From: Gammaproteobacteria bacterium
Lineage (GTDB): Bacteria > Pseudomonadota > Gammaproteobacteria > Burkholderiales > Rhodocyclaceae
DNA length: 64,000 nt
Assembly: GCA_018824085.1 (NCBI GenBank)
Contig: JAHJHI010000051.1
Span: forward strand, 62,001-126,000
Reading direction: 5' to 3'
Shown: piece by piece, positions 20,065 through 48,412 of the stretch
Numbering within the stretch: the first letter of the stretch is position 1
Layout: the number at the start of each line of letters is the position of its first letter
The notes under the pieces: generated by a model
The model's database searches: none
Told to the model about the DNA's origin: nothing
Seen by the model: only the letters and a program-made list of their open reading frames with translations
Translations under genes and position numbers: made by a program

Positions 20065-21329
20065 ATGACAACCACCGGAAAGAATGCGCCCGAGGCGGCG
20101 CGCCGGCCTCGCTGGCCCTGGATATTCATGTTCCTTCTGCTGGCCGGCGTCACCGCCGGCTGGTTCGTCGCACGTGACCGGACGGCACCTGCCGAAGGCG
20201 CCGGCGGACCGTTCGGCGGCCCCCCCGGCGGGCGGCGCATGGGGGCGAAGTCAATGTCGGCTCCGCGCTGGCGACACGCGCCGACCTGCCGGTACGCATC
20301 GAAGCGCTCGGCACGGTGACGCCGCTGGAGAGCGTGGTCGTGCGCAGCCGGGTCGAAGGCGAACTGCGCTCGCTGCACTTCACCGAAGGGCAGCGCGTGA
20401 AGAAGGGAGACCTGCTGGCGCAGATCGATCCGCGTGCATTCGAGGTCGAGCTGGCGCAGGCAAAGGCTGCGAGGGCGCGCAACCAGGCGCTGCTCGTCAA
20501 TGCGCGCGAGGATCTGGCGCGCTACGACACCCTGCTCGGGCAGGACTCGATCGCCGCGCAGCAGGTCAGCAACCAGCGCTCGCTGGTCCGCCAGTACGAA
20601 GCTGCGGTGCAGGCGGATGACGCGACGATCGCCAGCGCCCGGCTGTCGCTGCACTATGCGCGCATCACCGCGCCGATCAGCGGCCGCATCGGCCTGCGAC
20701 AGGCAACGCCCGGCAATCTGGTGCGCGCCGGCGACGCCGACGGCCTGCTCACCATCACGCAGTCGGCGCCGATTTCGGTCGTGTTCGCGCTGCCGGAGCC
20801 GTCCCTGCCGGGCGTTCGCGCAGCCATCGGCGGCGGCAAGGGGCTCGTCGTCGAGGCGCGCGACCGGGACAACAAGACCGTGCTGGCGACCGGTTCGCTG
20901 CGCATCCTCGACAACCAGATCGACGTGGCCACGGGCACCGTGAAGGCGCGTGCGATCTTCGACAACGCGGACGAGGCGCTCTTTCCGAACCAGTTCGTCA
21001 ACGTGAGCGTGCGTCTGGCCACGCTGGCCGGCGTGGTCGTCGTGCCGGCGTCGGCGATCCAGCGCGGCGATTCCGGGCCGTTCGTCTATGTCGTCGGGCC
21101 GGATCTGACGGTGTCGATGCGGCCGGTGAAGATCGGAGAACTGGACGGCGAGCGCCAGCAGGTCAGCGAAGGGCTGCTGGCGGGCGAGCGCGTCGTGACC
21201 GACGGCGTCGACCGCCTGCGCGAAGGTGACAAGGTCAAGGTGGACGGCGCGTCCGCCGCAGCGCGCAAGGACGCGCGAGCGGCCGGCCGGCCGGAATCGG
21301 GCGGGCCTGCCGCAGCGCCTGCGCACTGA
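20065..21329 (+). pseudogene. mdtA: RND periplasmic adaptor (MdtA type), frameshifted near its N-terminus
   Basis: The gene reads in two frames. From ATG 20065 there is a cytosolic N-terminus and a membrane anchor (WPWIFMFLLLAGVTAGWFVA), then a Gly/Pro-rich linker that ends out of frame at 20319. The rest continues one base back in frame: GEVNVGSALATRADLPVRIEALGTVTP, then a lipoyl/hairpin/barrel adaptor with RVEGELRSLHF and VVPASAIQRGDSG, to the stop at 21327-21329. The slip lies within roughly 20220-20250, which holds a run of seven Cs (20220-20226) and five Gs (20241-20245); one extra G would restore a continuous ~420-aa MdtA. Either a sequencing or assembly error or a real homopolymer mutation would explain it. 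A shorter product from GTG 20316 would lack the export signal. Confidence 0.8.
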
Positions 21330-21341
21330 CCGGACGACACC

Positions 21342-24300
21342 ATGAATCCGTCCCGTCTGTTCATCCTGCGGCCGGTCGCCACGTCGCTGCTGATGATTGC
21401 GCTGCTGGTGGCCGGGGCGCTCGCCTATCGCCTGCTGCCGGTGTCCGCGTTGCCGCAGGTCGACTACCCGACGATGCAGGTCGTCACCTTCTACCCGGGC
21501 GCGAGCCCGGATCTGACGGCGTCGCTGATCACCGCGCCGCTGGAGCGCCAGTTCGGCCAGATGCCGGGGCTGGCGCAGATGAACTCGATCAGCTCGGCCG
21601 GCGCGTCCGTGGTGACGTTGCGCTTCGGGCTCGACATTTCGCTCGACACCGCGCAGCAGGAGGTGCAGGCGGCGATCAACGCGGCGACCACGCTGCTGCC
21701 GCAGGAGCTGCCGGCACCGCCCGTCTACAGCAAGGTGAATCCGGCCGACGCGCCGGTGATGACGCTGGCCATCAGTTCCAGCGCATTGCCGCTGCACCGG
21801 CTGGAAGAAGCGGTGAGCACGCGTCTCGCGCAGAAGATTTCCCAGCAGTCGGGCGTCGGACTCGTGAGCATTTCGGGGGGCCAGCGTCGCGCCGTGCGGG
21901 TGCAGGTGAATCCGGCGGCGGTCGCCGCCTACGGACTGAGTCTGGAGCAACTGCGCGCGGCGGTCGTCAGCACGAGCTCCAGCCAGGCCAAGGGCGGCTT
22001 CGACGGGCCGATGCGCTCGACCACGCTGGACGCCAACGACCAGCTGCGTTCGGCAGACGAGTACCGGCGCAGCGTCATCGCATGGAAGAACGGTGCGCCG
22101 ATCCGGCTGCAGGACGTGGCGGAGGTCGTCGACGGGCCGGAGAACCGGCTGCTCGCCGCCTGGGCGAACACGACGCCGGCACTCATCCTGAACATCCAGC
22201 GCCAGCCGGGCGCCAACGTGATCGACGTGGTCGAGCGCATCCAGGCGCTGCTGCCCGAACTGCAGAATTCGCTGCCGGACGCGGTCGACATCGCCGTGCT
22301 GACGGACCGCACCGGATCAATCCGCACGTCGGTTCATGACGTTCAGACGGAACTCGTCATGGCGGTCGCGCTGGTCGTCATGGTCATCTTCATGTTCCTG
22401 CGCAATGTGCGTGCGACGCTCATCCCGGCCGTCGCGGTGCCGCTGTCGCTGATCGGCACCTTCGCGTTCATGTACATGGCCGGTTTCTCGGTGAACAACC
22501 TCACGCTGATGGCGCTGACGATCGCAGCCGGTTTCGTCGTCGATGACGCGATCGTCATGACCGAGAACATCGCGCGCCACCTCGAATCCGGATGCACCCC
22601 CATGGAGGCCGCGTTGCGCGGTGCGCGCGAGATCGGCTTCACCATCATTTCGCTGACCGTGTCGCTGGTCGCGGTGCTCATTCCGCTGCTGTTCATGCAG
22701 GAGGTCGTCGGGCGGCTGTTCCGCGAATTCGCGCTCACGCTGACCATCGCCATCCTGCTGTCCGCCGTGGTGTCGCTGACGCTGACGCCGATGATGGCGG
22801 CGCGCCTGCTCAAGGCGCAGCCGGTGCATGACGCGCATCAGGCGGAGGGCTGGTTCGCGCGGCTCACCGCCGGCTACGCGCGCTCGCTGCGCTGGGTGCT
22901 CGAACACCAGCGCCTCACGCTGCTCGCCACCGTCGCCACCTTCGTGCTCACCGCGCTGCTCTACCTTGCCGTGCCGAAAGGCTTTTTTCCGGTGCAGGAC
23001 ACAGGCCTCATCCAGGGCATGTCGGAAGCCGCTCCGACGGTGTCGTTCGCCGCCATGAGCGAGCGTCAGCAGGCGCTTGCCGAGGTGCTGCTGCGCGACC
23101 CGGATGTGGAGAACATCAGTTCCTTCATCGGTGTCGACGGCCAGAACGCGACGCTCAACACCGGCCGCATGCAGATACGCCTCAAGCCGCTGGACGAGCG
23201 CAGCGCGCGCGCGCCGGAGATCTCCCGCCGGCTCGAGGCGGCAGCGCGCGAGGTCGCGGGCGTCACGCTCTACCTGCAGCCAGTGCAGGATCTGACGATC
23301 GAGGACCGGGTGAGCCGTGCGCAGTATCCGTTTGTCGTGCGCGCCACCGATCAGGGTGATCTGCTCGAGTGGGTGCCGCGCCTGGTGGAAGCGCTCGGCC
23401 GCTCGGACAAGCTCGCGCAGGTGTCGACCGACCTCACGACCGGGGCGCTGCAGGCCTATGTCGACATCGACCGCTCGGCGGCGGCGCGCCTCGGCGTCAC
23501 CGTCGCGGACATCGATGCGGCGCTGTACAACGCCTTCGGCCAGCGCCTCATCTCCACCATCTTCACGCAATCGAGCCAGTATCGCGTGGTGCTGGAGGCA
23601 CTGCCGCAGTTCCAGCAGGGGCCGCAGGCGATTTCGCAACTGCACGTGCTGTCCGCGACCGGCGAGCAGGTGCCGCTGGGGGCGCTGGTGCGCGTGGAAG
23701 AGCGCGCGGCGCGGCTGTCGATTTCGCGCCAGGCGCAGTTTCCGTCGGCGACGGTGTCATTCAACCTGCCGGACGGCGTGTCGCTCGGCGAGGCGGTCGA
23801 CGCCGTCGATGCGGCGCGCGTTGCGCTGGGAATGCCGGCTTCGATGACGCTGAACTACGAGGGCGCGGCCGAGGCCTTCCGCGCGTCGCTGACCGACACG
23901 CTGTGGCTGATCCTTGCGGCCGTCATCACGATGTACATCGTGCTCGGCGTGCTGTACGAAAGCTTCATCCATCCGCTCACCATCCTCAGCACGCTGCCTT
24001 CGGCGGCCATCGGCGCGCTGCTCGCGCTGCTCGGCACCGGCCAGTCGCTCGACATGATCGCCGTCATCGGCATCATCCTGCTGATCGGCATCGTGAAGAA
24101 GAACGCCATCATGATGATCGACTTCGCGCTGGACGCCGAACGCACTGAAGGCAAGGCGCCGGTCGACGCGATCTACCAGGCCTGCCTGCTGCGCCTGCGC
24201 CCGATCCTGATGACGACGCTCGCCGCGCTGCTTGGCGCGCTGCCGCTGATGCTCGGCGGTGGCATGGGTTCGGAGCTGCGTCATCCGCTCGGCCTGACGA

Positions 24301-24425
24301 TGGTCGGCGGCCTGCTGGTGAGCCAGGTGCTCACGCTGTACACCACGCCGGTCATCTATCTGGCATTCGGCCGGCTGTTCGGCGCGCGCGTTGCGCCGGC
24401 CGTGCCGCGGGGCAGTGCGTCGTGA
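21342..24425 (+). CDS. mdtB: RND efflux pump subunit, MdtB/MuxB type
   Basis: A 1027-aa RND transporter. It begins [22 protein letters not shown], the MdtB-type first helix. The TM4 proton-relay aspartates are in [14 protein letters not shown], and the TM10 lysine lies in [14 protein letters not shown]. In the MdtABC family two different RND proteins form a heterotrimer, and this is the first of the pair. It follows the adaptor gene by 12 bp and overlaps mdtC by 4 bp (GTGA). Known MdtABC/MuxABC systems export novobiocin, bile salts and flavonoid-like compounds; that range is only suggestive here. Confidence 0.93.
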
Positions 24426-27400
24426 GTGCCTGGGCCTGGTCGATACATCGTCCGGTGGCGACCACGCTGCTGACGTTCGCCGTCGCGCTGGCCGGCGCCA
24501 TTGCGTTCCGGCTGCTGCCGGTGGCCGCACTGCCGCAGGTCGACTTCCCGACGATATCGGTGAGCGCGTCCTTGCCGGGCGCCAGTCCGGAGGTGATGGC
24601 GGCCACCGTGGCGACACCGCTCGAACGTGCGCTCGGACGCATCGCCGGCGTGACGGAAATGACCTCCAGCAGTTCCGAGGGCAACACGCGCGTGACGCTG
24701 CAGTTCGAGCTGGAGCGCGACGTCGAGGGCGCGGCGCGCGACGTGCAGGCGGCGATCAATGCGTCGCGCGCGTCGTTGCCGAGCAGCCTGCCGTCCAACC
24801 CGAGCTATCGCAAGATGAATCCGGCGGACGCGCCGATCATGATCCTGTCCATCACGTCGGACACGGTGCCCATTCCGCAGCTGTATGACGTCGCCTCGAC
24901 GGTGCTCGCGCAGAAGATCGCGCAGATAAGCGGCGTCGGCGAGGTCAATGTCGGCGGCGGTGCGCTGCCTGCGATTCGCGTGCAGGTGAATCCGGATGCG
25001 CTGCATCAGGCGGGTCTCACGCTGGAGAACGTGCGTACGCGCATCGCCGAGAACAACGTCAACCGGCCCAAGGGCTTCGTCGAGCAGGACGGGCGCTACT
25101 GGCAGATCGAGGCGAACGATCAGGCGCGCCGCGCGGCCGACTATCTGCCCATCATCCTGCGCCACACCTCGGGCGCGGCCATCCGCCTGGGCGACGTCGC
25201 GCGGGTCGAGGATTCGGTGCAGGACGTGCGCAACCTCGGGCTCACGAACGGCAAGCCGACGGTGCTGCTGGTGCTCACCAAGCGCCCGGGCAGCAATGTG
25301 ATCGAAACCGTGGAAAGCGTGCGCGCGCTGCTGCCCGAACTGTCGGCCAGCCTGCCGGCGTCGGCCAGCATGGAAATCGCGATGGACAGTTCGGTCACCA
25401 TACGGGCCGCGCTGCATGAAGTGGAGATTTCACTGGTCGTCGCGGTCGCGCTGGTCATCTTCGTGGTGTTCCTGTTCCTGCGCAATGCGCGCGCGACGCT
25501 GATTCCGGCGGTGGTGGTGCCGGTGTCGCTGGGCGGCAGCTTTGCCGCGATGTATCTGCTCGGTTTCAGCCTGAACAACCTGTCCTTGATGGCGCTGACC
25601 ATCGCGACCGGCTTCGTCGTGGATGACGCCGTGGTGGTGATCGAGAACATCGCACGCCACATCGAACGCGGGCTGAAGCCTTTCGATGCCGCGATCGCCG
25701 GCGTGCGCGAGGTCGGTTTCACCGTGGTGGCGATCAGCCTGTCGCTGGTCGCCGTGTTCATCCCCATCCTGCTGATGGGCGGCGTGGTCGGACGGCTGTT
25801 CCGCGAATTCGCGCTCACGCTGTCGATCGCCGTCGGCGTGTCCATGGTGGTGTCGCTCACGGCGGCGCCGATGCTCGCCGCGCGGTTGCTGCGCGCCGGA
25901 AAGCCGGCCGACGAGGCGCGCTGGCAGCGCGCGCTCGCGCGCGTGTTCGACGACGTGCAGAGCGCGTACGCGCACAGCCTGGACTGGGCGCTGCGCCACA
26001 CGCGCATCGTCATGCTCATCTTCATCGGCGCCGTGGCGCTGAATGTGTGGCTGTTCATCATCGTGCCCAAAGGCTTCTTCCCGCAGCAGGACACCGGGCG
26101 CCTGTTCGGCAACCTGCGCGCCGACCAGACCATTTCCTTCCAGGCGATGTCGGTCAAGATGAAGCAGGCGGTCGACGTCGTGCGGGCGGACCCGGCCGTG
26201 GACATGGTGAGTGCCTTCGCCGGCGGCGGGCGGCGCAGCCAGAACAGCGCGAGCTTCTTCGTCAATCTGAAACCGCTGGCGGAGCGCGGCGTGTCGTCCG
26301 AGAAGGTGATGGGGCGCCTGCGCGGAAAGCTGTCGCAGATCGAGGGCGTGCAGCTCTTCCTCGTGGCGGCGCAGGATCTGCGCATCGGCGGGCTGCGCTC
26401 GTCGTCGCAGTACCAGTTCACGCTGACCGGCGACAGCCTTGATGCGCTGGACGAATGGGCGCCCCGCGTGCGCGACGCGATGCGCGACCTGCCGCAGCTG
26501 GTGGATGTCGGCACCGACCGCGAGGACCGTGCGTCGCAGACCATGCTGGTCTATGACCGCGACACGCTGGCGCGTCTGGGCATGACGCCGGGCGGCGTGA
26601 ACCAGATTCTGTACGACGCCTTCGGACAGCGCCAGGTGAGCACGCTGTACGAACCGCTGAACCAGTACAAGGTGGTGCTGGAGGTTGATCCGGCGCGCGC
26701 GCAGGACCTGTCGGCGCTGGAGTCGGTGCGGGTGGGCGCGGCCGACGGCGCACTGGTGCCGCTGAGCACGTTCGCGCGCGTCGAGCAGGGCACGATGCCG
26801 CTGTCGATCGCGCATGTCGACGGACAGATATCGACCACCATCTCGTTCGGCACCGCCGAAGGCGTGACGCTTGCGCAGGCGATGGATGCGGTGCGCGGCG
26901 CGATGCGCAGCATCGGCGTGCCGGCCGGCATCAACGCCGGTTTCCAGGGGTCGGCGCGCGCCTTCCAGCAGTCGCTGTCGAGTCAGCCGTTGCTCATCAT
27001 CGCGGCCATACTCGCGGTCTATTTGGTGCTCGGCATCCTGTACGAAAGCCTGATCCATCCGCTGACCATCCTGTCCACGCTGCCGTCGGCCGGCATCGGC
27101 GCCATCCTCGCGCTGATGGCTTTCAACATCGAATTCGGCCTGATCGCCATCATCGGCGTGCTGCTGCTCATCGGCATCGTGAAGAAGAACGCGATCATGA
27201 TGATCGACTTTGCACTCGACGCCGAACGCCGGCTCGGGCTCGATCCGAAGGACGCCATCCGGCAGGCCTGCCTGCTGCGCCTGCGTCCCATCCTGATGAC
27301 CACGCTGGCCGCCATGGTCGGCGCGCTGCCGCTGGCCATCGGTTTCGGCGAAGGCGCCGAGCTGCGCCAGCCGCTTGGCATCGCCGTCGTGGGCGGCCTC

Positions 27401-27517
27401 ATCGTGAGCCAGTTGCTGACGCTCTACACGACGCCGGTCACCTATCTCTACCTGGAACGCTTCAGTCGCTACTGCGCCCGCCGTCTTGGCGCCGCAGCGC
27501 GCACGGTCACGTCATGA
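24422..27517 (+). CDS. mdtC: RND efflux pump subunit, MdtC/MuxC type
   Basis: A 1031-aa RND transporter, the second of the heteromeric pair. It has a GTG start whose GTGA overlaps the mdtB stop. TM1 begins [21 protein letters not shown]. The TM4 aspartates are in [15 protein letters not shown], and TM10 has [14 protein letters not shown]. It differs from the upstream pump over the periplasmic porter domains but shares the overall fold, as expected for an MdtB/MdtC duplication. Its stop overlaps the outer-membrane factor start (ATGA), so the whole operon is translationally coupled. Confidence 0.93.
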
Positions 27518-28920
27518 ACAGACACCTCTTGCTCATTGTTCCGGCGCTGCTCGCCGGCTGCACGACGGTCGGCCCGGATCACCGGACGCCGGCCATGGAT
27601 CTGCCCGCCGCGTATCGCGCGGCCGACGGCTGGAAACCGGCCGAGCCGTCCGATCACCTGCCGCGCGGCAACTGGTGGCGCGCCTATGAAGATCCGGCGC
27701 TCGACGCGCTGATCGAGCGTCTCGACCGCGCAAATCCGGACCTGCAGTCCGCGCTCGGCAGCTTCCGCCAGGCGCGTGCGGCCGCCGCGCAGGCGCGCGC
27801 CGGCTTCCGGCCCGAGGTCGGCCTGTCGGCCTCGGCCAGCCGCAGCCGCGGCACCGCGATACAGGGGCGCTCCGCCAATCTGTCCAGCACGACACAGCTG
27901 GCACTCGACGCAAGCTGGGAGGCGGACCTGTGGGGACGCATCGCGCGCGAAGTCGAAGCGGCTGGCGCGGAGCTGGCCGGCAGCGGTGCGGATCTCGCTT
28001 CGGTGCGGCTCGCGCTGCATGCGGAACTGGTGCAGAACTACTTTCAGCTGCGCTCGACCGACGGTCAGCGCGATCTGTATGCGCGTACCGTGGCGGCGTA
28101 TGAGCGGGCGTACGAAGTCGCGGGCAACCGCGTCGCGGCCGGTGTCGCCACGCACGGCGACGAGGTTCAGGCGCTGGCGCAACTGCGCGCGGCGCAGGCG
28201 CAGGCGGTCGACCTTGACCTCACGCGCACCCAGCTGCAGAACGCGATTGCCGTGCTGGTCGGCGAGGCACCGTCCGCCTTTGCGCTCGACGTGGCTGCCG
28301 GCGAGCTTGTGCAGCCGCCGTCCACACCGGTCGGCCTGCCGTCCGCACTGCTTGAGCGCCGGCCCGACGTGGCTGCCGCCGAACGGCGGGTGGCTGCCGC
28401 GAACGCGCGCATCGGCGTGGCGCAGGCCGCGTGGTTTCCGTCGCTGACGTTGTCGGCGTCGACCGGCTACGCCGGCAACAACTTCGCGCAGTGGTTTTCG
28501 GCGCCGGCTTTCGTGTGGTCCTTCGGACTGTCGACGGCGCAGGCCGTGTTCGACGGTGGGCGACGCGACGCGCAGATCGAATCGGCGCGCGCCGCGCACG
28601 ACATCACCGTGGCGCAATACCGGCAAACCGTGCTGGGTGCGCTGCAGGAGGTCGAGGACAATCTGAGTGCGCTGCGTCTGCTCGAAGACGAAGCGGTGCT
28701 TCTGGCGCAGGCGCTTGCCGCGTCGCGCGAAGCCGAGTCGCTCGCTCTGAACCGCTATCGGGCCGGCACGGCGAGCTACACGGAGGTCATCACGGCGCAG
28801 ACGGCCGCACTGAACAACGCGCGCAGCCTTGTTCAGCTGCGCGGACGGCAGTACTCGGCGAGCGCGCTGCTGAACAAGGCGGTCGGCGGTGGCTGGGAGG
28901 GCGCCGCCGCTGCGCCATGA
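27514..28920 (+). CDS. Outer-membrane efflux lipoprotein of the MdtABC-type system (NodT/OprM family)
   Basis: A 468-aa TolC-fold protein. Lipobox LLAGCTTVGPDH gives Cys at about 15 and the family start VGPDHRTP. NWWRAYEDPALDALIERL and two OEP repeats follow, then LLERRPDVAAAERRVAAANARIGVAQAAWFPSL. It overlaps the mdtC stop by 4 bp. E. coli MdtABC borrows TolC, whereas here, as in Pseudomonas MuxABC-OpmB, the operon carries its own channel. It ends 75 bp before the LysM-FecR gene, with no clear terminator. Confidence 0.92.
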   Translation: MNRHLLLIVPALLAGCTTVGPDHRTPAMDLPAAYRAADGWKPAEPSDHLPRGNWWRAYEDPALDALIERLDRANPDLQSALGSFRQARAAAAQARAGFRPEVGLSASASRSRGTAIQGRSANLSSTTQLALDASWEADLWGRIAREVEAAGAELAGSGADLASVRLALHAELVQNYFQLRSTDGQRDLYARTVAAYERAYEVAGNRVAAGVATHGDEVQALAQLRAAQAQAVDLDLTRTQLQNAIAVLVGEAPSAFALDVAAGELVQPPSTPVGLPSALLERRPDVAAAERRVAAANARIGVAQAAWFPSLTLSASTGYAGNNFAQWFSAPAFVWSFGLSTAQAVFDGGRRDAQIESARAAHDITVAQYRQTVLGALQEVEDNLSALRLLEDEAVLLAQALAASREAESLALNRYRAGTASYTEVITAQTAALNNARSLVQLRGRQYSASALLNKAVGGGWEGAAAAP

Positions 28921-28995: not shown

Positions 28996-30624
28996 GTGTC
29001 TCATCACACCCCTCCCGTCCGCGCATGGCTTCGCCGCATCGCCTGCATCGCGCTGCTGACATGCGGTCCGGCCGACGCCGGTGATTTTGCCTACGTCGTG
29101 CGCCCTGGCGACAATCCGTGGAATCTGACCCAGCGCTACCTGAAGGATATTTCCTACTGGCCGCGCATTCAGCGCTACAACCGCATCAGCGAGCCGCGCC
29201 GCATGATTCCAGGCACACGGCTGATGATTCCCGAGAAGTGGTTGCGCCTGCAGTCGCGCGAAGTGCGGCTCCATGCCGTGCGCGGCGAAGTCGTGCTCGT
29301 TGCGACGGACGGACGCCGCCAGGCGGCCGAGACCGGCGCGCTGCTGAGCGCCGGCATGCGGGTGCTGACCGGCCCGGAAGGCAGCGCTGCGCTCGCCTTT
29401 GCCGATGGCAGCCGTGCCCAGCTGCGCCCGGACAGCGAACTGGGGGTGCGTCAGGCCGGTGAGCTCGCAGCCGGCGCGGGATCATGGGTGCGGCTGGAAC
29501 TGCTGCGCGGTTCGGTCGAAAGTCTGGTCACGCCGCGTGGCGGCCCGGCCGGGCGCTTCGAGATCGATACACCGTCGGCCGTGGCGGCTGTGCGTGGCAC
29601 GCACTTCCGCGTGCACGCCACCGACAGCGCGACCCGCAATGAAGTCATCACGGGTCGCGTCGCGTTCGGCAACAGCGCCGGTGAGCATATTGTTGGCGAA
29701 GGTCAGGGGTCGGCCGCGTCACGCGGTGCGGCCGCAACTCCTCCGTCGACGCTGCTCCCGGCGCCGGAATCCCGGGCGCTTTTTGCCGACCGTCTGCCGC
29801 TCAGCCTGCCGTTTCCGGCGCTGGACGGCGCGACCGGCTATCGCGTGCAGATCGCTGACGATGCCGCGTTCGACACGGTGCTGTCCGATCGCATCGGTGC
29901 CAATCCGCAGGTGATTGCGGTGGACTTGCCTGATGGCGAGTACCGCGTGAGGGTGCGCGGCATCGATCACGCAGGTTTCGAGGGACGCGACGGCGAATGG
30001 CCACTGACGCTTGATGCGAGCCCCGAGCCTCCCGTGCTGGTGTCGCCGGCTCCGGCGGCGCGTATCAGCGACGAGCGTCCGCAGTTCGCCTGGAGCCGCG
30101 CACGGCCCGACGAGCGCTGGCGCGTGCAGCTGTCGACGACCGGGGACTTCGCGGCGCCGCTGACGGATCGCGCGGATCTCGATCAGCCGTCCTTCCGGGT
30201 GGACGCGCCACTCGCACCTGGCGTGTACTTCTGGCGGGTTGCCAGCAGCAATCCGGATGAAGGGATCGGTCCGTTCAGCGACGCGCAGACCTTCCGACGC
30301 CCGCCGCCGGGCCCCGCGCTTGAGGCACCACAGGCGACCGAGGACGGGCTTTCGCTGCGCTGGCGCAGCGCCGGCGACGGAGCGCGCTATCATTTGCAGA
30401 TAGCCGGCAGCGACGATTTCACGCAGCTGCGTGTAGACGAACAGCTGGATCGGCCGGCGTATCTGTTGCGCGATGCGCCGCCTGGCGCCTACTTCCTGCG
30501 CGTGCGAAGTCTTGCCGCCGACGGTTTCGCGGGCGACTGGGCGCCGGCGCAGATGGTGACGGTGCCCGAGCCGCCGCCATCGTTCCGCGTGTGGTGGTTG
30601 CTGCCACTGTTGCTGCTCATCTGA
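28996..30624 (+). CDS. Secreted LysM-FecR protein with Ig/FN3-like repeats
   Basis: A 542-aa protein. Signal peptide is residues ~1-28. A LysM module (~32-78, YVVRPGDNPWNLTQRYL) should bind peptidoglycan. A FecR-like domain (~90-240) includes EGSAALAFADGSRAQLRPDSEL and TPSAVAAVRGTHFRV. Three Ig/FN3-like beta modules span ~265-525, each with a YxxQIAxxxxF-type strand. A very short hydrophobic end (WWLLPLLLLI) finishes exactly at the stop. The start is GTG 28996 with GGAGA 5 bp upstream. The CHASE2-GGDEF-EAL gene follows after 52 bp. FecR-type domains usually sense or relay periplasmic signals, but no sigma factor gene is nearby, so the partner is more likely the CHASE2 sensor. The function is not established. 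Confidence 0.82.
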   Translation: MSHHTPPVRAWLRRIACIALLTCGPADAGDFAYVVRPGDNPWNLTQRYLKDISYWPRIQRYNRISEPRRMIPGTRLMIPEKWLRLQSREVRLHAVRGEVVLVATDGRRQAAETGALLSAGMRVLTGPEGSAALAFADGSRAQLRPDSELGVRQAGELAAGAGSWVRLELLRGSVESLVTPRGGPAGRFEIDTPSAVAAVRGTHFRVHATDSATRNEVITGRVAFGNSAGEHIVGEGQGSAASRGAAATPPSTLLPAPESRALFADRLPLSLPFPALDGATGYRVQIADDAAFDTVLSDRIGANPQVIAVDLPDGEYRVRVRGIDHAGFEGRDGEWPLTLDASPEPPVLVSPAPAARISDERPQFAWSRARPDERWRVQLSTTGDFAAPLTDRADLDQPSFRVDAPLAPGVYFWRVASSNPDEGIGPFSDAQTFRRPPPGPALEAPQATEDGLSLRWRSAGDGARYHLQIAGSDDFTQLRVDEQLDRPAYLLRDAPPGAYFLRVRSLAADGFAGDWAPAQMVTVPEPPPSFRVWWLLPLLLLI

Positions 30625-30676
30625 AAGGAAAGCATGTGACCACGGGTCTGGCCAGGCGGCTTCAGGAGCTTCCGCT

Positions 30677-33550
30677 GTGAAAGCGCCCCGGAGCCGTCTG
30701 GCCGCCAGTCTTGGCGATGGCCTGCTCTGGCCCTGGTTGTTCTCGCTCTTCCTGCTTTTCCTCTTCCACGCATTCGCGCCGCTGCCGCTGACCCGCCTGG
30801 ACCTGATGCTCCACGACGGCTTGTCGCCGGGCGTGACGGTCGACGAAACGGACCGTCCGCTCGTCGTCGAAATCGACGAAGCCAGCCTGAACGCATACGG
30901 CGCCTGGCCTTGGCCACGCGCCCAGCATGCGGCGCTGATCGACCGCCTGAACCGCGCCGATGTCGCCGGCATCGGCTACACCGTCATGTTCGCCGAGCCG
31001 TCGCGCCTTGAAAGCGGGGACCATTCGCTGGTCGAAGCGATCGCGCGTGCCGGCAATGTCGTGCTGCCGGTGGCGCCGGTCGCGCGTGGCGACGGCGGTG
31101 TCAGCCTGCTCATGCCGTTGCCTGCGCTGGCCGACGTGGCTGCGCGTCTGGGACATGTGGATGTGGAGCTCGATGCCGATGCGCTGGCACGGCGCGTGTA
31201 TCTGCAGGCTGGTGTCGGGTCGCCCCAGTGGCCCGCCTTTGCGTGGGCGCTCATCGATGTGTCGCGCCGGGCGCGGCCGCTGTCCAATCTGGGCGCACGT
31301 CGCCGGGGCGATGCCGACGCTGTCGGGTACTGGGTGCGGGATCGCGAGGTCATCGTGCTGCCGGCGGCAGCGGCGCCACAGCATGTATCCGCGGCGGACG
31401 TGCTGTCTGGCAGCGTGCCCGATGACGTGTTGCGGGGGCGCTCGGTGCTGGTCGGCGTGACGGCTGTCGGCCTGGGCAGCGCGCTGGCGACGCCGCTGTC
31501 CGTCCATGCTGCGCCGATGCCGGCTGTGGAATTCCATGCGCGGACATACTCGGCACTGCGCAATGGCTGGATGCAGACGCAGCTGGCACCCGGCTGGAGC
31601 CTGTTGCCGGCACTGACCGCACTGGCCGCGTTGTTCGCGTTGCGCCCGCAATGCCGCAAGCGGGACATGGCGCTCGTCGCACTGTTGCTCACGCTGCCTG
31701 TTCTGTGCAGCGTCGTGCTGCTGCATGGGGCGCGGCTGTGGATGCCGCCGGCGATGGCGAGCGCCGCCCTGTTGACCGGCGCACTGTGCTGGCTGTTGGT
31801 GCAGACAACGCGTCTCGCGGTGCGCCTCAATCGCGCCCACGCGCGGGCCAACGCGACGCTGCACGCCATTTCCGATGCGGTTATGCGGCTCGACAGCGCG
31901 TTGCATCTGCGCTATCTGAACCGGCAGGCCGAATTGTTCGCGAACTGCCGACTCGGCGATGTCCATGGCGCGGGACTCGAGCGTCTGCAGGCACTCGGCA
32001 CCGACGTCGTCGTCGCGCTGTCGACGCTTGCGCGCCGTTGCCGCGACAGTGCGACGCCGCAGCGTCAGGCGGGGCACGTGATGATGCCGACCGGGCCGGC
32101 TGGCGCGGCGCGGGCACTTCGCCTGAGCGCCAGCCCGCTGCTCGACGGGTCGGGGCGGCCCGAGGGAGTCGTGCTGGTGCTCAATGACGTCAGCGATACC
32201 GTCGCTGCGGCAGAGCGGCTGGCGCACCAGGCGACGCACGACGCGCTGACCGGGCTGCCGAATCGCGTGTTGCTGCGCGATCGGCTGCGACAGGCGCTGG
32301 CGCAGCGGGCGCAGGGCATCGTCGCCGTGCTGTTCGTCGATCTCGACCGTTTCAAGCGCATCAATGACAGCCTTGGCCACCAGATGGGCGACCGCGTGCT
32401 GACGACGCTGGCCGGACGCCTGCGCTCGGTGTGCCGGGTCGGCGACACTGTTGCGCGCTGGGGCGGCGACGAATTCATGATCATCCTGCAGGACATGGCG
32501 GATCGCGAGGCGGTCGGGCGGGTCGCCGCGAAAGTGATGCACTCGGTGGGCGAATCCATCACGCTGGACGACGTCGATTTCCGGTTTTCATGCAGCATCG
32601 GCATTGCCATCGCGCACGAGGACAGCAGCGACGCCGACGTGCTGTTCGCGATGGCCGACACCGCGATGTACCGCAGCAAATCGCAGTCCGGCGCGGCGAT
32701 TCATTTCTATGCCTGCGACATGAGCGCCGGCACGCGCGACTGGATAGAACTGGAGTCCGATCTGCGGCGGGGCGTTGAAGAGGACAGGTTCGAAGTCCAT
32801 TACCAGCCGCAGTACGAACTGGCCGGCGGGCGCCTGTCGGCGTTCGAGGCGTTGTTGCGCTTCCGGCGGCATGACGGTGAATTGCTGCAGCCGGCGGACT
32901 TCATCACCGTTGCGGAAGAATCCGGCCTGATCGAGAGCATCGGCGACTGGGTGCTGCAGGAAGTCACGCTGCAGATAGCGAGCTGGTCCAGTCAGGGGCT
33001 GCCGGTCGTGCCGGTTGCGGTCAATGTATCCGCGCGTCAGTGCCTGGGCCGGTCGCTGGTGCGCCGCGTGGCGAACGCGCTGGAGCAGTCGGGCATCATG
33101 CCGTCGCTGTTGCGCCTGGAACTGACGGAAACGACGGCGATGAGCGATGTCGACCACGTCGCGGCGCTGCTCGGTGACATCCGCGCGCTGGGGGTCAGCC
33201 TTTCGGTCGACGACTTCGGCACCGGCTATTCGTCGCTGTCCTATCTCAAGCGTTTCCCGATCGATGAACTGAAGGTTGATCGGTCGTTTGTGCGGGACCT
33301 GTGCAGCGACGCCGACGACGAGGCCATCGTGCGCGCCACCATTGCGCTGGCGCATGGGCTGGGGATGCGTGTCGTTGCCGAAGGCGTGGAAACCGAAGCA
33401 CAGCTCGCCATGCTGTCCGCCCATCAGTGTGACGTGGTGCAGGGCTATCTGTTTTCGCGCCCGCTTTCCGCCGCCGATCTCGCGGCGCAGAACATTCTTT
33501 CCGGCGGCAAGGTGCGCACCGAGCGTGGCTTGCGGCTGATCCAGTCCTGA
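30677..33550 (+). CDS. CHASE2-PAS-GGDEF-EAL cyclic-di-GMP signalling protein
   Basis: A 957-aa membrane sensor enzyme. TM1 (~14-38) precedes a periplasmic CHASE2 domain (~40-300) and three closely spaced helices (~300-380), the usual CHASE2 topology. A PAS-like segment is ~390-505. GGDEF (~515-680) has an intact GGDEF motif near 595 and an RxxD inhibitory site (RVGD) five residues before it. The EAL domain (~700-945) keeps FEALLRF, NVSARQ, LELTET, DDFGTGYSSL, KVDRSFV, AEGVET and QGYLFSRP. Both diguanylate cyclase and phosphodiesterase activities are therefore possible. GTG 30677 follows an AGGAG site. It is in an operon with the LysM-FecR gene, suggesting periplasmic input from cell-wall state. 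Confidence 0.92.
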   Translation: MKAPRSRLAASLGDGLLWPWLFSLFLLFLFHAFAPLPLTRLDLMLHDGLSPGVTVDETDRPLVVEIDEASLNAYGAWPWPRAQHAALIDRLNRADVAGIGYTVMFAEPSRLESGDHSLVEAIARAGNVVLPVAPVARGDGGVSLLMPLPALADVAARLGHVDVELDADALARRVYLQAGVGSPQWPAFAWALIDVSRRARPLSNLGARRRGDADAVGYWVRDREVIVLPAAAAPQHVSAADVLSGSVPDDVLRGRSVLVGVTAVGLGSALATPLSVHAAPMPAVEFHARTYSALRNGWMQTQLAPGWSLLPALTALAALFALRPQCRKRDMALVALLLTLPVLCSVVLLHGARLWMPPAMASAALLTGALCWLLVQTTRLAVRLNRAHARANATLHAISDAVMRLDSALHLRYLNRQAELFANCRLGDVHGAGLERLQALGTDVVVALSTLARRCRDSATPQRQAGHVMMPTGPAGAARALRLSASPLLDGSGRPEGVVLVLNDVSDTVAAAERLAHQATHDALTGLPNRVLLRDRLRQALAQRAQGIVAVLFVDLDRFKRINDSLGHQMGDRVLTTLAGRLRSVCRVGDTVARWGGDEFMIILQDMADREAVGRVAAKVMHSVGESITLDDVDFRFSCSIGIAIAHEDSSDADVLFAMADTAMYRSKSQSGAAIHFYACDMSAGTRDWIELESDLRRGVEEDRFEVHYQPQYELAGGRLSAFEALLRFRRHDGELLQPADFITVAEESGLIESIGDWVLQEVTLQIASWSSQGLPVVPVAVNVSARQCLGRSLVRRVANALEQSGIMPSLLRLELTETTAMSDVDHVAALLGDIRALGVSLSVDDFGTGYSSLSYLKRFPIDELKVDRSFVRDLCSDADDEAIVRATIALAHGLGMRVVAEGVETEAQLAMLSAHQCDVVQGYLFSRPLSAADLAAQNILSGGKVRTERGLRLIQS

Positions 33551-39727: not shown

Positions 39728-39895
39728 GTCTGGCCGTGGACGCCGGTGTGCCTGCAATCCGCGGGCCGGCATGCGCCGAGCGGACTATGAACGGCGCATC
39801 CATCGGATTCGGCATGTAATGAGGGCTCCATAGACTGCGTGGCCGGCGCGGGGCCTGGACTCCGCGTCTTCCATTGCAATCTCCGGAGCCCATTG

Positions 39896-41611
39896 ATGAA
39901 ACACTCCCTTCCGACAACGATGCGCCTGAGCTGCATCGTGCCTGCACTGTGCGCACTGTTCTGCGTGCCCGTCCATGCCGCCGCCAATGCCGCCGACTAC
40001 GCGCAGAGCGTGCTCGCTGCCGACCCGCTTGCCTACTGGCAGCTCGACGCGCTGGCTGGCGCACTGAGCGGCGCAGATTCGAGCGGCAACGGCTACGACG
40101 CCGTGCCGCTCGGCAGTGGCAGCCTGATTGCCGGCCTGTTCGGCAATGCCGCGGCCGGTGGCGGCAGCTATCTGCAGGCACCGACGCTGGACGCGCTGAC
40201 CGGCAGCACGGCCGTGACCGTCGAAGCCTGGGTGCGGCTGGACGCGCCGATGAGCAGCATCGACGGTAGCTACGCCAGCATTTACGACAGCCGCCAGGAC
40301 AACTATGTCCTCTATTTCGACCGCAACAACAGCGAGCTGCGCTTCAAGGTCGCGACGGCCAACGGCTATGCCGAACGCCCGGGCGCCAGTTCCTACATCG
40401 TCGACAAGAAGCAGGGCGAGTGGATACACGTGGTCGGCATGCTGGACCAGAACGATCCGGCCGGTTCGTCCGCCAAGATCTATGTCGACGGCGTGCTGCG
40501 CGATCGGCACACCGCGGTCAAACTCGATTCGACGATCCCCGGCGGCCAGCTGGCCGCCATCGGCGCCGACTGGAACAACGGCAGCCCGAGCAGCCTGTTC
40601 AACATCGGCAACGTCGACCAGGTTGCCATCTATGGTCGTGCGCTGACCGAAGCGGAAGTCCGCAACCACTTCGAACTGGGCAGCGGCAAGACCTTCGCCG
40701 CTTCCTCACCGAAGGTGACCAGCATGGCGGAAGGCTTCGAGGTGATCGCGCATCGCGGCAACTCCATGTTCGCGCCCGAGAACACGCTGGAGTCGGACCG
40801 TCAGGCAATCGCGCTTGGCGCGCACCGCTTCGAGACCGACGTGCGCCTCACCAAGGACGGCGTGGCCGTCATTTCGCATGACGACAACACGTCGCGCGCC
40901 ACCGGCGTGAGCAAGTCGATCGCCAACAGCACGGCGGCCGAACTTGCCGATCTGTCGGCCGGCCTGTCCAACGTGTTCGGTGACCGCTACGCCGGGGAGA
41001 AGATTCCCACGCTCGTGCAGACGCTGGAGCTTGCACGCGACGGCGACAGCAAGGTCGTGCTCGACGTGAAGGTCGACAACGCCGGCGCCGCCATTGCGCA
41101 GGCCATTGCCGACACCGGTTTCGATCCGGCCGATGTGGTGGCCTTCGGCTGGAACAACGCTGCGGTCGCCGATCTGGTGACCCATCTGGGCGATGCCGAA
41201 GTGTTCCACCTCGGCTTCTTCGGCGGCTTCGTCGCCGCGGCAACGCTCGATGGTCGCGCCAGCTATCTGGACGGCTTGAAGGCAACCGGCGTCGATGGCC
41301 TTGCACTGTCGTTCGGTGACCTGCTCAGCGGCGGCGAGCCGCTCTGGGGCGACCTGCTCGCGCTCGCCGCAAGCCGCGACCTGCGCGTGTTCGCGTGGAC
41401 GGTGAACGAGGCGGAAACGATGGCTGACCTGATCTCGCTGAAGGCCGAACGCATGATTGACGGCCGGCTCGTGACCGGCCAGCTGTCCGGCATCATTACC
41501 GACGATCCGGCAACCGCACTGGCGCTGGTGTCATCCGTGCCGGAAGCGCAGACGTGGATGATGTTCCTCGCCGGCGGCGTGCTGCTGATGTTGCGTCGTC
41601 GCTCGGCGTAA
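39896..41611 (+). CDS. Secreted LamG-glycerophosphodiester phosphodiesterase with PEP-CTERM-like tail
   Basis: A 571-aa exported protein. Signal peptide is ~1-30 (ends VHAAA). A LamG/concanavalin-like domain is ~35-265 (PLAYWQLDALAG, VTVEAWVRLDAP, VDQVAIYGRALTEAEVRNHF). A GDPD domain is ~280-545 with VIAHRGNSMFAPENTLES, FETDVRLTKDGVAVISHDD and FAWTVNEAETMADL. The extreme C-terminus is VPEAQTWMMFLAGGVLLMLRRRSA-like: a PEP-box variant (PEA for PEP), a hydrophobic helix and an Arg cluster, as in exosortase substrates. It probably cleaves glycerophosphodiesters outside the cytoplasm. ATG 39896 has GGAG 8 bp upstream. No exosortase gene is in the window. Confidence 0.88.
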   Translation: MKHSLPTTMRLSCIVPALCALFCVPVHAAANAADYAQSVLAADPLAYWQLDALAGALSGADSSGNGYDAVPLGSGSLIAGLFGNAAAGGGSYLQAPTLDALTGSTAVTVEAWVRLDAPMSSIDGSYASIYDSRQDNYVLYFDRNNSELRFKVATANGYAERPGASSYIVDKKQGEWIHVVGMLDQNDPAGSSAKIYVDGVLRDRHTAVKLDSTIPGGQLAAIGADWNNGSPSSLFNIGNVDQVAIYGRALTEAEVRNHFELGSGKTFAASSPKVTSMAEGFEVIAHRGNSMFAPENTLESDRQAIALGAHRFETDVRLTKDGVAVISHDDNTSRATGVSKSIANSTAAELADLSAGLSNVFGDRYAGEKIPTLVQTLELARDGDSKVVLDVKVDNAGAAIAQAIADTGFDPADVVAFGWNNAAVADLVTHLGDAEVFHLGFFGGFVAAATLDGRASYLDGLKATGVDGLALSFGDLLSGGEPLWGDLLALAASRDLRVFAWTVNEAETMADLISLKAERMIDGRLVTGQLSGIITDDPATALALVSSVPEAQTWMMFLAGGVLLMLRRRSA

Positions 41612-48049: not shown

Positions 48050-48412
48050 TGGTGGAGGCGGCGGGAATCGAACCCGCGTCCGCAAGCCCTACACAGACAG
48101 TTCTACATACTTAGCCTGGCCATTTGGTCTAACCCGTCACCCGCCGACCCGGCAGGCTGATGAAAGGCGATCCGCTTGATTTTCGTGATGCACCACGCGG
48201 CGGAGTGCATCCTTACTTTAGCTGTTAATGGCGCTGCAACCGGTTGCCCGGCCCGACCCGCTAATCAGTCGGTGCAGCGTCCGGCCTTAAGCGGCCAGAG
48301 CGTAAGATTCGTCGTTGGCGACTATCTAATTTTCGGTTGGATTTACGAGGTACTCCGACCCTCGGTATGCCCTGCGCTGCTTCGCGACCCACGTCGAGAC
48401 CAGGTCGCCCCC
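48050..48412 (-). ncRNA. ssrA: Transfer-messenger RNA (tmRNA)
   Basis: A one-piece tmRNA of 363 nt on the minus strand. The 5' end GGGGGCGACCTGGTCTCGACG and the 3' end with T-arm GGGTTCGATTCCCGC and acceptor CCTCCACCA pair as the tRNA-like domain. The open frame resumes after ATTAGATAGTC and encodes the degradation tag ANDESYALAA. It rescues stalled ribosomes with SmpB and marks the products for ClpXP. The stretch is often mis-read as a tRNA-Ala or as protein on the other strand. Confidence 0.97.
48287..48319 (-). other. tmRNA proteolysis-tag reading frame (ANDESYALAA-stop)
   Basis: Within ssrA, GCC AAC GAC GAA TCT TAC GCT CTG GCC GCT TAA encodes A-N-D-E-S-Y-A-L-A-A. The resume codon is GCC at 48319. 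The tag has the AND-start and ALAA-end pattern of beta-proteobacterial tmRNAs. Confidence 0.93.

Follow-up and report, generated by a model that had tools for sequence, protein, structure and literature searches.

For CHASE2, an extracellular sensor domain, published accounts describe the ligands as unknown (PMC10581220, PMC5192318), and the locus analysed here raises the question of whether a neighbouring gene encodes the input to a receptor of this kind. The locus lies in a stretch of 64,000 nucleotides, hereafter the window, from a 4.28-Mb genome; the nearest named records that carry its first gene are from Methyloversatilis. Open reading frames place a gene for a LysM-FecR protein first and a gene for a CHASE2 receptor second, on the same strand and separated by a 52-bp spacer, just as the sequence-only reading had them when it proposed that the former protein is the periplasmic input of the latter. 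The two genes and the likely ribosome-binding site between them are as follows.

28996..30624, + strand: gene for the LysM-FecR-Fn3x3 protein (ORF, GTG start, 542 aa)
30664..30668, + strand: AGGAG, likely ribosome-binding site of the CHASE2 gene (read by eye, 8 bases before the GTG at 30677)
30677..33550, + strand: gene for the CHASE2-(membrane helices)-PAS-GGDEF-EAL protein (ORF, GTG start, 957 aa)

Scans for promoters and terminators at the locus gave matches that were no commoner than in shuffled sequence. The scanned neighbours that flank the pair encode efflux, phasin, CoA-transferase, and ClpB proteins, and none is a TonB-receptor or sigma-factor gene. Custom profiles for response regulators (REC) and histidine kinases found no match within the 64-kb window. 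Further along, the window contains a gene in which a laminin-G-like lectin domain is fused to a glycerophosphodiester phosphodiesterase domain (39839-41611), as well as a tmRNA gene on the minus strand (48050-48412) with the tag ANDESYALAA.

The first protein was divided into the following parts.

Residues about 1-28: signal peptide (read from the sequence, by eye)
Residues about 31-83: LysM (Pfam and model)
Residues about 90-242: FecR-like fold (Pfam and model)
Residues about 254-347, 348-437, and 438-527: three Fn3/Ig-like domains (model and structural alignment)
Residues 532-542, window 30589-30621, + strand: hydrophobic C-terminal tail with an aromatic start (by eye)

The Pfam score of the FecR domain is well above threshold (61.7 bits versus a cut-off of 24), whereas LysM scores slightly under its cut-off (18.5 versus 20.9 bits) and Ig_J reaches 28.6 bits against 29. 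The LysM cut-off is exceeded in six scanned relatives (L194, L195, L196, L212, L056, and L173). In an AlphaFold model (mean pLDDT 82, pTM 0.53), parts that resemble LysM and FecR are followed by three beta sandwiches, and the chain ends in a short helix. The modelled FecR part superimposes on PupR (6ovk) with a Z-score of 15.1 and a deviation of 2.5 A over 129 residues, and the sandwiches match fibronectin type III structures, which makes the earlier designation of three Ig-like modules correct in kind. The LysM, FecR, and Ig-like architecture read from the sequence is upheld by Pfam, the AlphaFold model, and the Fn3 alignment, with LysM slightly under its Pfam cut-off. The FecR fold mediates protein-protein signalling in FecR/PupR regulators. 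Those regulators share the predicted fold with the LysM-FecR protein, which contains the FecR domain that defines them, but they also possess a cytoplasmic anti-sigma domain and are linked to ECF sigma-factor and TonB-receptor genes, none of which was found here. Pfam returned no anti-sigma model in the LysM-FecR protein, the N-terminus of which reads as a signal peptide and LysM. The protein is predicted to be bound to peptidoglycan through LysM. Its hydrophobic tail could touch a membrane; judged by eye, this tail occurs in 12 of the 15 LysM-FecR rows that have a GGDEF-type partner and in 6 of the 21 that have a histidine kinase and, being present with both partner types, is not an output-specific mark.

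The receptor contains four domains that all exceed their Pfam cut-offs.

30761..31633, + strand: CHASE2 domain, residues 29-319 (Pfam 156.8 bits)
31859..32203, + strand: PAS domain, residues 395-509 (Pfam PAS_4 36.3 bits)
32231..32686, + strand: GGDEF domain, residues 519-670 (Pfam 155.5 bits)
32759..33463, + strand: EAL domain, residues 695-929 (Pfam 241.5 bits)

Helices are predicted at residues 18-33, 305-322, 340-351, and 359-384, an arrangement that would place CHASE2 between an N-terminal and several later membrane helices, although the model is of low confidence within CHASE2 itself. The periplasmic half is poorly modelled (pLDDT under 50 at residues 131-233 and 263-301), and among the best 60 of 91 PDB matches none extends before residue 385. 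A residue-level check located the cyclase motifs (I-site RVGD at 587-590, GGDEF at 596-600) and the phosphodiesterase motifs (EALLR at 724-728, DDFG at 845-848, EGVE at 902-905), confirming that the GGDEF, I-site, and EAL motifs are intact. From these motifs, the receptor probably both makes and destroys c-di-GMP.

Immediately upstream of the pair lies an efflux cluster (window 20316-28920) comprising a membrane-fusion protein, two tandem AcrB-family pumps, and an outer-membrane factor. Within the genus, a constant gene order runs from the efflux genes and the outer-membrane factor through the pair to CoA-transferase and ClpB; in three congeners (L042, L046, and L050), additional DNA of about 0.9 to 4 kb separates the pair from the outer-membrane-factor gene. 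The LysM-FecR gene is present in 10 of 12 congeners, followed by the CHASE2 gene in nine and by a contig end in one. In the other two, G007 and G009, both genes are absent while both flanks are intact (sites L267 on G007:C11 and L268 on G009:C26): the outer-membrane-factor gene is followed by a short spacer and a small phasin-like gene, with 81-84% identity on either side. Elsewhere in these two genomes, the only matches to the CHASE2 part are weak ones, in frames of 762-909 aa. G007 and G009 are direct evidence that the two genes are gained or lost as a unit, in one event or two. At 17 loci outside the genus, the pair alone matches; seven other neighbour genes from the window were compared there, with no match. 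Membership of the pair in the upstream RND efflux operon is rejected on two counts, namely that only the pair is found outside the genus and that G007 and G009 keep the efflux genes without it.

The absence of conserved linkage in relatives had been named beforehand as a result that would count against the pairing. Linkage was found: among 41 genomes, besides the home genome, in which a long LysM-FecR match occurs, 38 have LysM-FecR and CHASE2 genes clustered, one is cut by a contig end, and two lack CHASE2. When the genome and 60 relatives were searched, 22 other genomes had such a match (defined as starting at query residue 29 or earlier and ending at 445 or later, of 542). CHASE2 was clustered in 20 of these; the contig ends after the LysM-FecR gene in L045, and none was present in L056. 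A profile was also run against 299 genomes from the phylum, the home genome among them, a long match here being one that starts at profile position 31 or earlier and ends at 340 or later, of 539. This yielded 22 places outside the home genome; three fall in genomes that the first search had covered, and five have one in-frame stop within the match. CHASE2 belongs to the cluster at 21 of the 22 places, within a 1.5-kb flank at 20 and at L240 in the remaining case. L240 is the same gene as L058, where the receptor and regulator genes precede the LysM-FecR gene. In most pairs the two genes either overlap by a few bases or stand up to about 120 bp apart, measured from predicted starts. In the fetched 15-18 kb, no CHASE2 was found near the LysM-FecR gene at L056 or L266 (the latter being the L246 place, 18 kb), so the LysM-FecR protein may serve other functions or have a partner encoded at a distance. 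Because the pair recurs across genera, its adjacency exceeds what would be expected by chance. Two loci, L053 (9058-11511) and L074 (14485-16413), have a second REC-GGDEF(-EAL) gene that directly adjoins the pair, and in a Thauera metagenome contig (L076:3016-6041) the CHASE2 and GGDEF-EAL parts occupy two overlapping frames, either a true split or an assembly error.

Which CHASE2 receptors have a FecR partner was examined across the class, in which CHASE2 occurs in 84 of 149 genomes. From at least 147 foreign CHASE2 places (150 rows less three from the home genome), 100 regions were fetched; this sample is non-random, as the list was walked from the top and places at contig ends, fragments, some second copies, and most of the weakest rows were omitted. 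Clustering of the C-terminal parts behind CHASE2 assigned the 111 frames to 67 cyclases, 23 Ser/Thr kinases, 12 histidine kinases, and five GGDEF/EAL proteins, with one SpoIIE, one frame that has no recognised output, and two short frames remaining. Pfam checks covered L136 (cyclase), L205 (Ser/Thr kinase), L152 and L184 (histidine kinase), all five GGDEF/EAL members, and the two singletons. Same-strand upstream FecR frames accompany all 12 histidine-kinase receptors (11 within 300 bp, one at 310) and four of the five GGDEF/EAL receptors (within 310 bp), the gaps being measured between stop-to-stop frames. The corresponding counts are 1 of 67 for the cyclase type and 0 of 23 for the Ser/Thr-kinase type, where less than 1.5 kb of upstream DNA had been fetched for 3 and 10 frames, respectively. 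When any position within 300 bp is allowed, FecR frames adjoin 11 of the 67 cyclase types, 10 of them downstream. Four of these cyclase-linked FecR frames were scanned with Pfam (L227, L159, L144, and L209), and LysM was absent from each; one has TPR repeats. A custom profile detected LysM in 10 of 12 histidine-kinase-linked and in all four GGDEF-linked FecR frames; in L199 the assignment comes from that profile, Pfam having given no match in the scanned fragment. The two kinase-linked frames in which no LysM was found, L184 and L185, weaken a wall-sensing reading for the module as a whole.

A general pairing of CHASE2 with FecR is rejected, both on the Ser/Thr-kinase class (0 of 23, with the limit on upstream DNA just given) and on the two other CHASE2 receptors of the home genome, which lie in a fetched 19.9-kb stretch devoid of FecR frames. 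Since most CHASE2 frames of the other output classes have no upstream FecR, CHASE2 per se needs none. Even within the GGDEF-EAL class, L138 has no FecR nearby. The two partnered classes were also compared for regulator genes. Same-strand response-regulator genes occur in the fetched stretch of 19 of 21 histidine-kinase loci, and the others (L185 and L222) have REC within the receptor; the count is 2 of 20 for GGDEF-type loci (L053 and L074, both of the REC-GGDEF kind), and L196, also GGDEF-type, has REC inside the receptor. Across histidine-kinase and GGDEF loci, then, the sensing half stays constant while the output half is exchanged. As a separate observation, one cluster of the home genome (L064:6948-13594, on G000:C33) encodes a CHASE2-Ser/Thr kinase, a PP2C phosphatase, an FHA protein, and a CHASE2-cyclase, and kinase-type and cyclase-type CHASE2 frames adjoin in several regions of the class sample too.

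Trees of the two proteins bear on such exchange. LysM-FecR proteins group largely by the output of their partner: 16 of 19 GGDEF-partnered rows fall in one branch (support 95/95), GGDEF-type rows L194, L195, and L212 lie outside it, and three changes of output type are required. The histidine-kinase-partnered L055 and L057, from the window's own family, are placed elsewhere. Near-copies within the genus make this clustering by output look stronger than it is. Most of the CHASE2-domain tree is poorly resolved, 21 of its 37 inner branches being open, although GGDEF-type L053 groups with histidine-kinase-type L169 (97/88), suggesting that output was exchanged at least once. Within the genus, GGDEF (87% identity to the window), EAL (85%), and LysM (85%) change slowly, and CHASE2 (64%), the Fn3 arms (66-68%), and PAS (59%) change fast. 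Across 14 rows, five near-copies or short rows having been left out, LysM-FecR and CHASE2 distances remain correlated once the output domains are accounted for (partial correlation 0.65, against -0.11 for a LysM-FecR/PAS control); with CHASE2 accounted for, LysM-FecR also correlates positively with the output domains (0.42). These distances lend weak support to the pairing.

The published system that most resembles the window pair is the BiofilmReg operon of Burkholderia contaminans, also found in Burkholderia, Achromobacter, and others, which encodes a response regulator, a LysM-FecR protein, a CHASE2-PAS histidine kinase, and a DUF4136 protein (PMC5192318). Both loci place the gene for the same type of exported LysM-FecR protein beside a gene for a CHASE2-PAS receptor, and the BiofilmReg paper likewise puts this protein in the periplasm, bound to peptidoglycan (PMC5192318). 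The output differs: HisKA and HATPase domains together with a CreB-like response-regulator gene in BiofilmReg (PMC5192318), PAS-GGDEF-EAL and no gene detected by our custom REC profile in the window. Insertion into the response-regulator gene abolishes biofilm formation; the authors suppose that transcription of all four genes is lost, and they regard the LysM-FecR protein and the kinase as sensing different signals (PMC5192318), which speaks against a reading in which one feeds the other. By domain content and arrangement, the window pair is the c-di-GMP-output form of a module whose histidine-kinase form is the BiofilmReg operon.

Other systems share parts of this organisation. A cluster in Campylobacterota combines a CHASE2-adenylate-cyclase, a FecR-domain outer-membrane protein, a TPR protein, and a cAMP phosphodiesterase; it too associates FecR with a CHASE2 receptor of second-messenger output, but the messenger is cAMP, not c-di-GMP, and the cluster includes TPR and phosphodiesterase genes (PMC9239204). 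Dgc2 of Leptolyngbya boryana (CHASE2-PAS-GGDEF, ligand unknown) resembles the window receptor in CHASE2-PAS and c-di-GMP output; its description includes no EAL domain, and FecR is not mentioned in the paper (PMC10581220). The pmxA operon of Myxococcus xanthus encodes a FecR lipoprotein, a LysM-Fn3 protein, and the cyclic-dinucleotide phosphodiesterase PmxA, and thus joins FecR, LysM, and Fn3 parts to a membrane-bound cyclic-dinucleotide enzyme; there, however, FecR and LysM reside on two proteins, in the window on one, and the enzyme is described with Cache, HAMP, and HD-GYP in place of CHASE2, GGDEF, and EAL (PMC8844925, PMC4877007). Described with Cache, PmxA is rejected as a CHASE2 protein (PMC8844925, PMC4877007). 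In Magnetospirillum, the gene for MtxA, which has Ig-like and TPR parts, precedes a CHASE2-cyclase gene (PMC4439547). Within the literature searched, whose coverage leaves out most subscription journals, we recognised no description of the c-di-GMP form of the LysM-FecR/CHASE2 pair. The sequence-only reading had called the system poorly described; this is right only in part, as the histidine-kinase form (PMC5192318) and a cluster of FecR with a CHASE2 cyclase in Campylobacterota (PMC9239204) are both in print.

The strength of the linkage, its specificity for output class, and the joint absence in two congeners make the LysM-FecR protein as periplasmic input the best reading of these data. We consider it fairly probable that the two genes form a dedicated two-protein sensory unit in which a wall-held LysM-FecR protein acts on CHASE2 and shifts the balance of c-di-GMP. 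The LysM-FecR-Fn3 protein would be exported and held on peptidoglycan through LysM. Its FecR fold and Fn3 arms would touch CHASE2 in the periplasm, either presenting the state of the envelope or outer membrane or responding to it; CHASE2 would relay the signal through the membrane helices and PAS to the GGDEF-EAL pair, which may then shift the balance between synthesis and breakdown of c-di-GMP. No response-regulator gene would be needed, because the output is itself an enzyme. Beneath this scheme lie the observed gene architecture, the intact catalytic motifs, the conserved and output-specific linkage, the joint absence in two congeners, and the predicted fold of the LysM-FecR protein. The contact between the two proteins, the direction of signalling, the stimulus, the enzyme activities, and the net sign of the c-di-GMP change are what we infer in this scheme. 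The cell wall is a reasonable candidate stimulus, suggested by the LysM domain only.

It is tempting to speculate that LysM-FecR proteins are obligate periplasmic co-receptors of a distinct CHASE2 class with exchangeable output (two-component kinase or c-di-GMP enzyme), and that the module reads the state of peptidoglycan directly. A line would then run from the wall to c-di-GMP in which CHASE2 senses a protein instead of a small ligand. We regard this broader proposal as possible but doubtful.

Three rival arrangements were weighed. The LysM-FecR protein might tether the c-di-GMP enzyme to a site on the wall (pole, septum, or appendage base) and create a local pool without passing any signal. 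A LysM domain followed by a chain of Fn3 arms has, in the model, the look of a tether, and the LysM stretch resembles TsaP (E 4.6e-4), a part of the type IV pilus machine. Joint inheritance of the two genes would fit a tether equally well, but the same type of LysM-FecR protein accompanies histidine kinases with a response-regulator gene, where activity should outweigh location, and we find localisation unlikely. Signalling from the outer membrane to a FecR fold is known from FecA-FecR and PupB-PupR. By analogy, an unlinked outer-membrane protein might act on the FecR fold, which is modelled much like that of PupR, and through it on CHASE2, with peptidoglycan serving only as an anchor. Such a relay would have parallels in the Sinorhizobium CHASE2 cyclases, which respond via the outer-membrane barrel NsrA (PMC13001267), and in the FecR-domain outer-membrane protein encoded beside a CHASE2 cyclase in Campylobacterota (PMC9239204). 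We nevertheless give it little credence, as the scanned neighbours include no TonB-receptor gene and the sole outer-membrane gene nearby, the efflux factor at 27514-28920, is not beside the pair outside the genus. Finally, co-expression of the enzyme with an envelope or matrix protein that is not its input is very improbable: Fn3-rich exported proteins are often surface proteins and two LysM-FecR copies have no nearby CHASE2, but the linkage singles out two CHASE2 output classes, and the cluster persists though gene order changes (L058).

The reading we prefer, with the LysM-FecR protein as input, gives receptors with the widespread CHASE2 domain a named candidate input in the form of a conserved, output-specific partner, and makes the question of what CHASE2 senses testable in a methylotroph. 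It would also connect the cell envelope to c-di-GMP and hence to the choice between swimming and biofilm.
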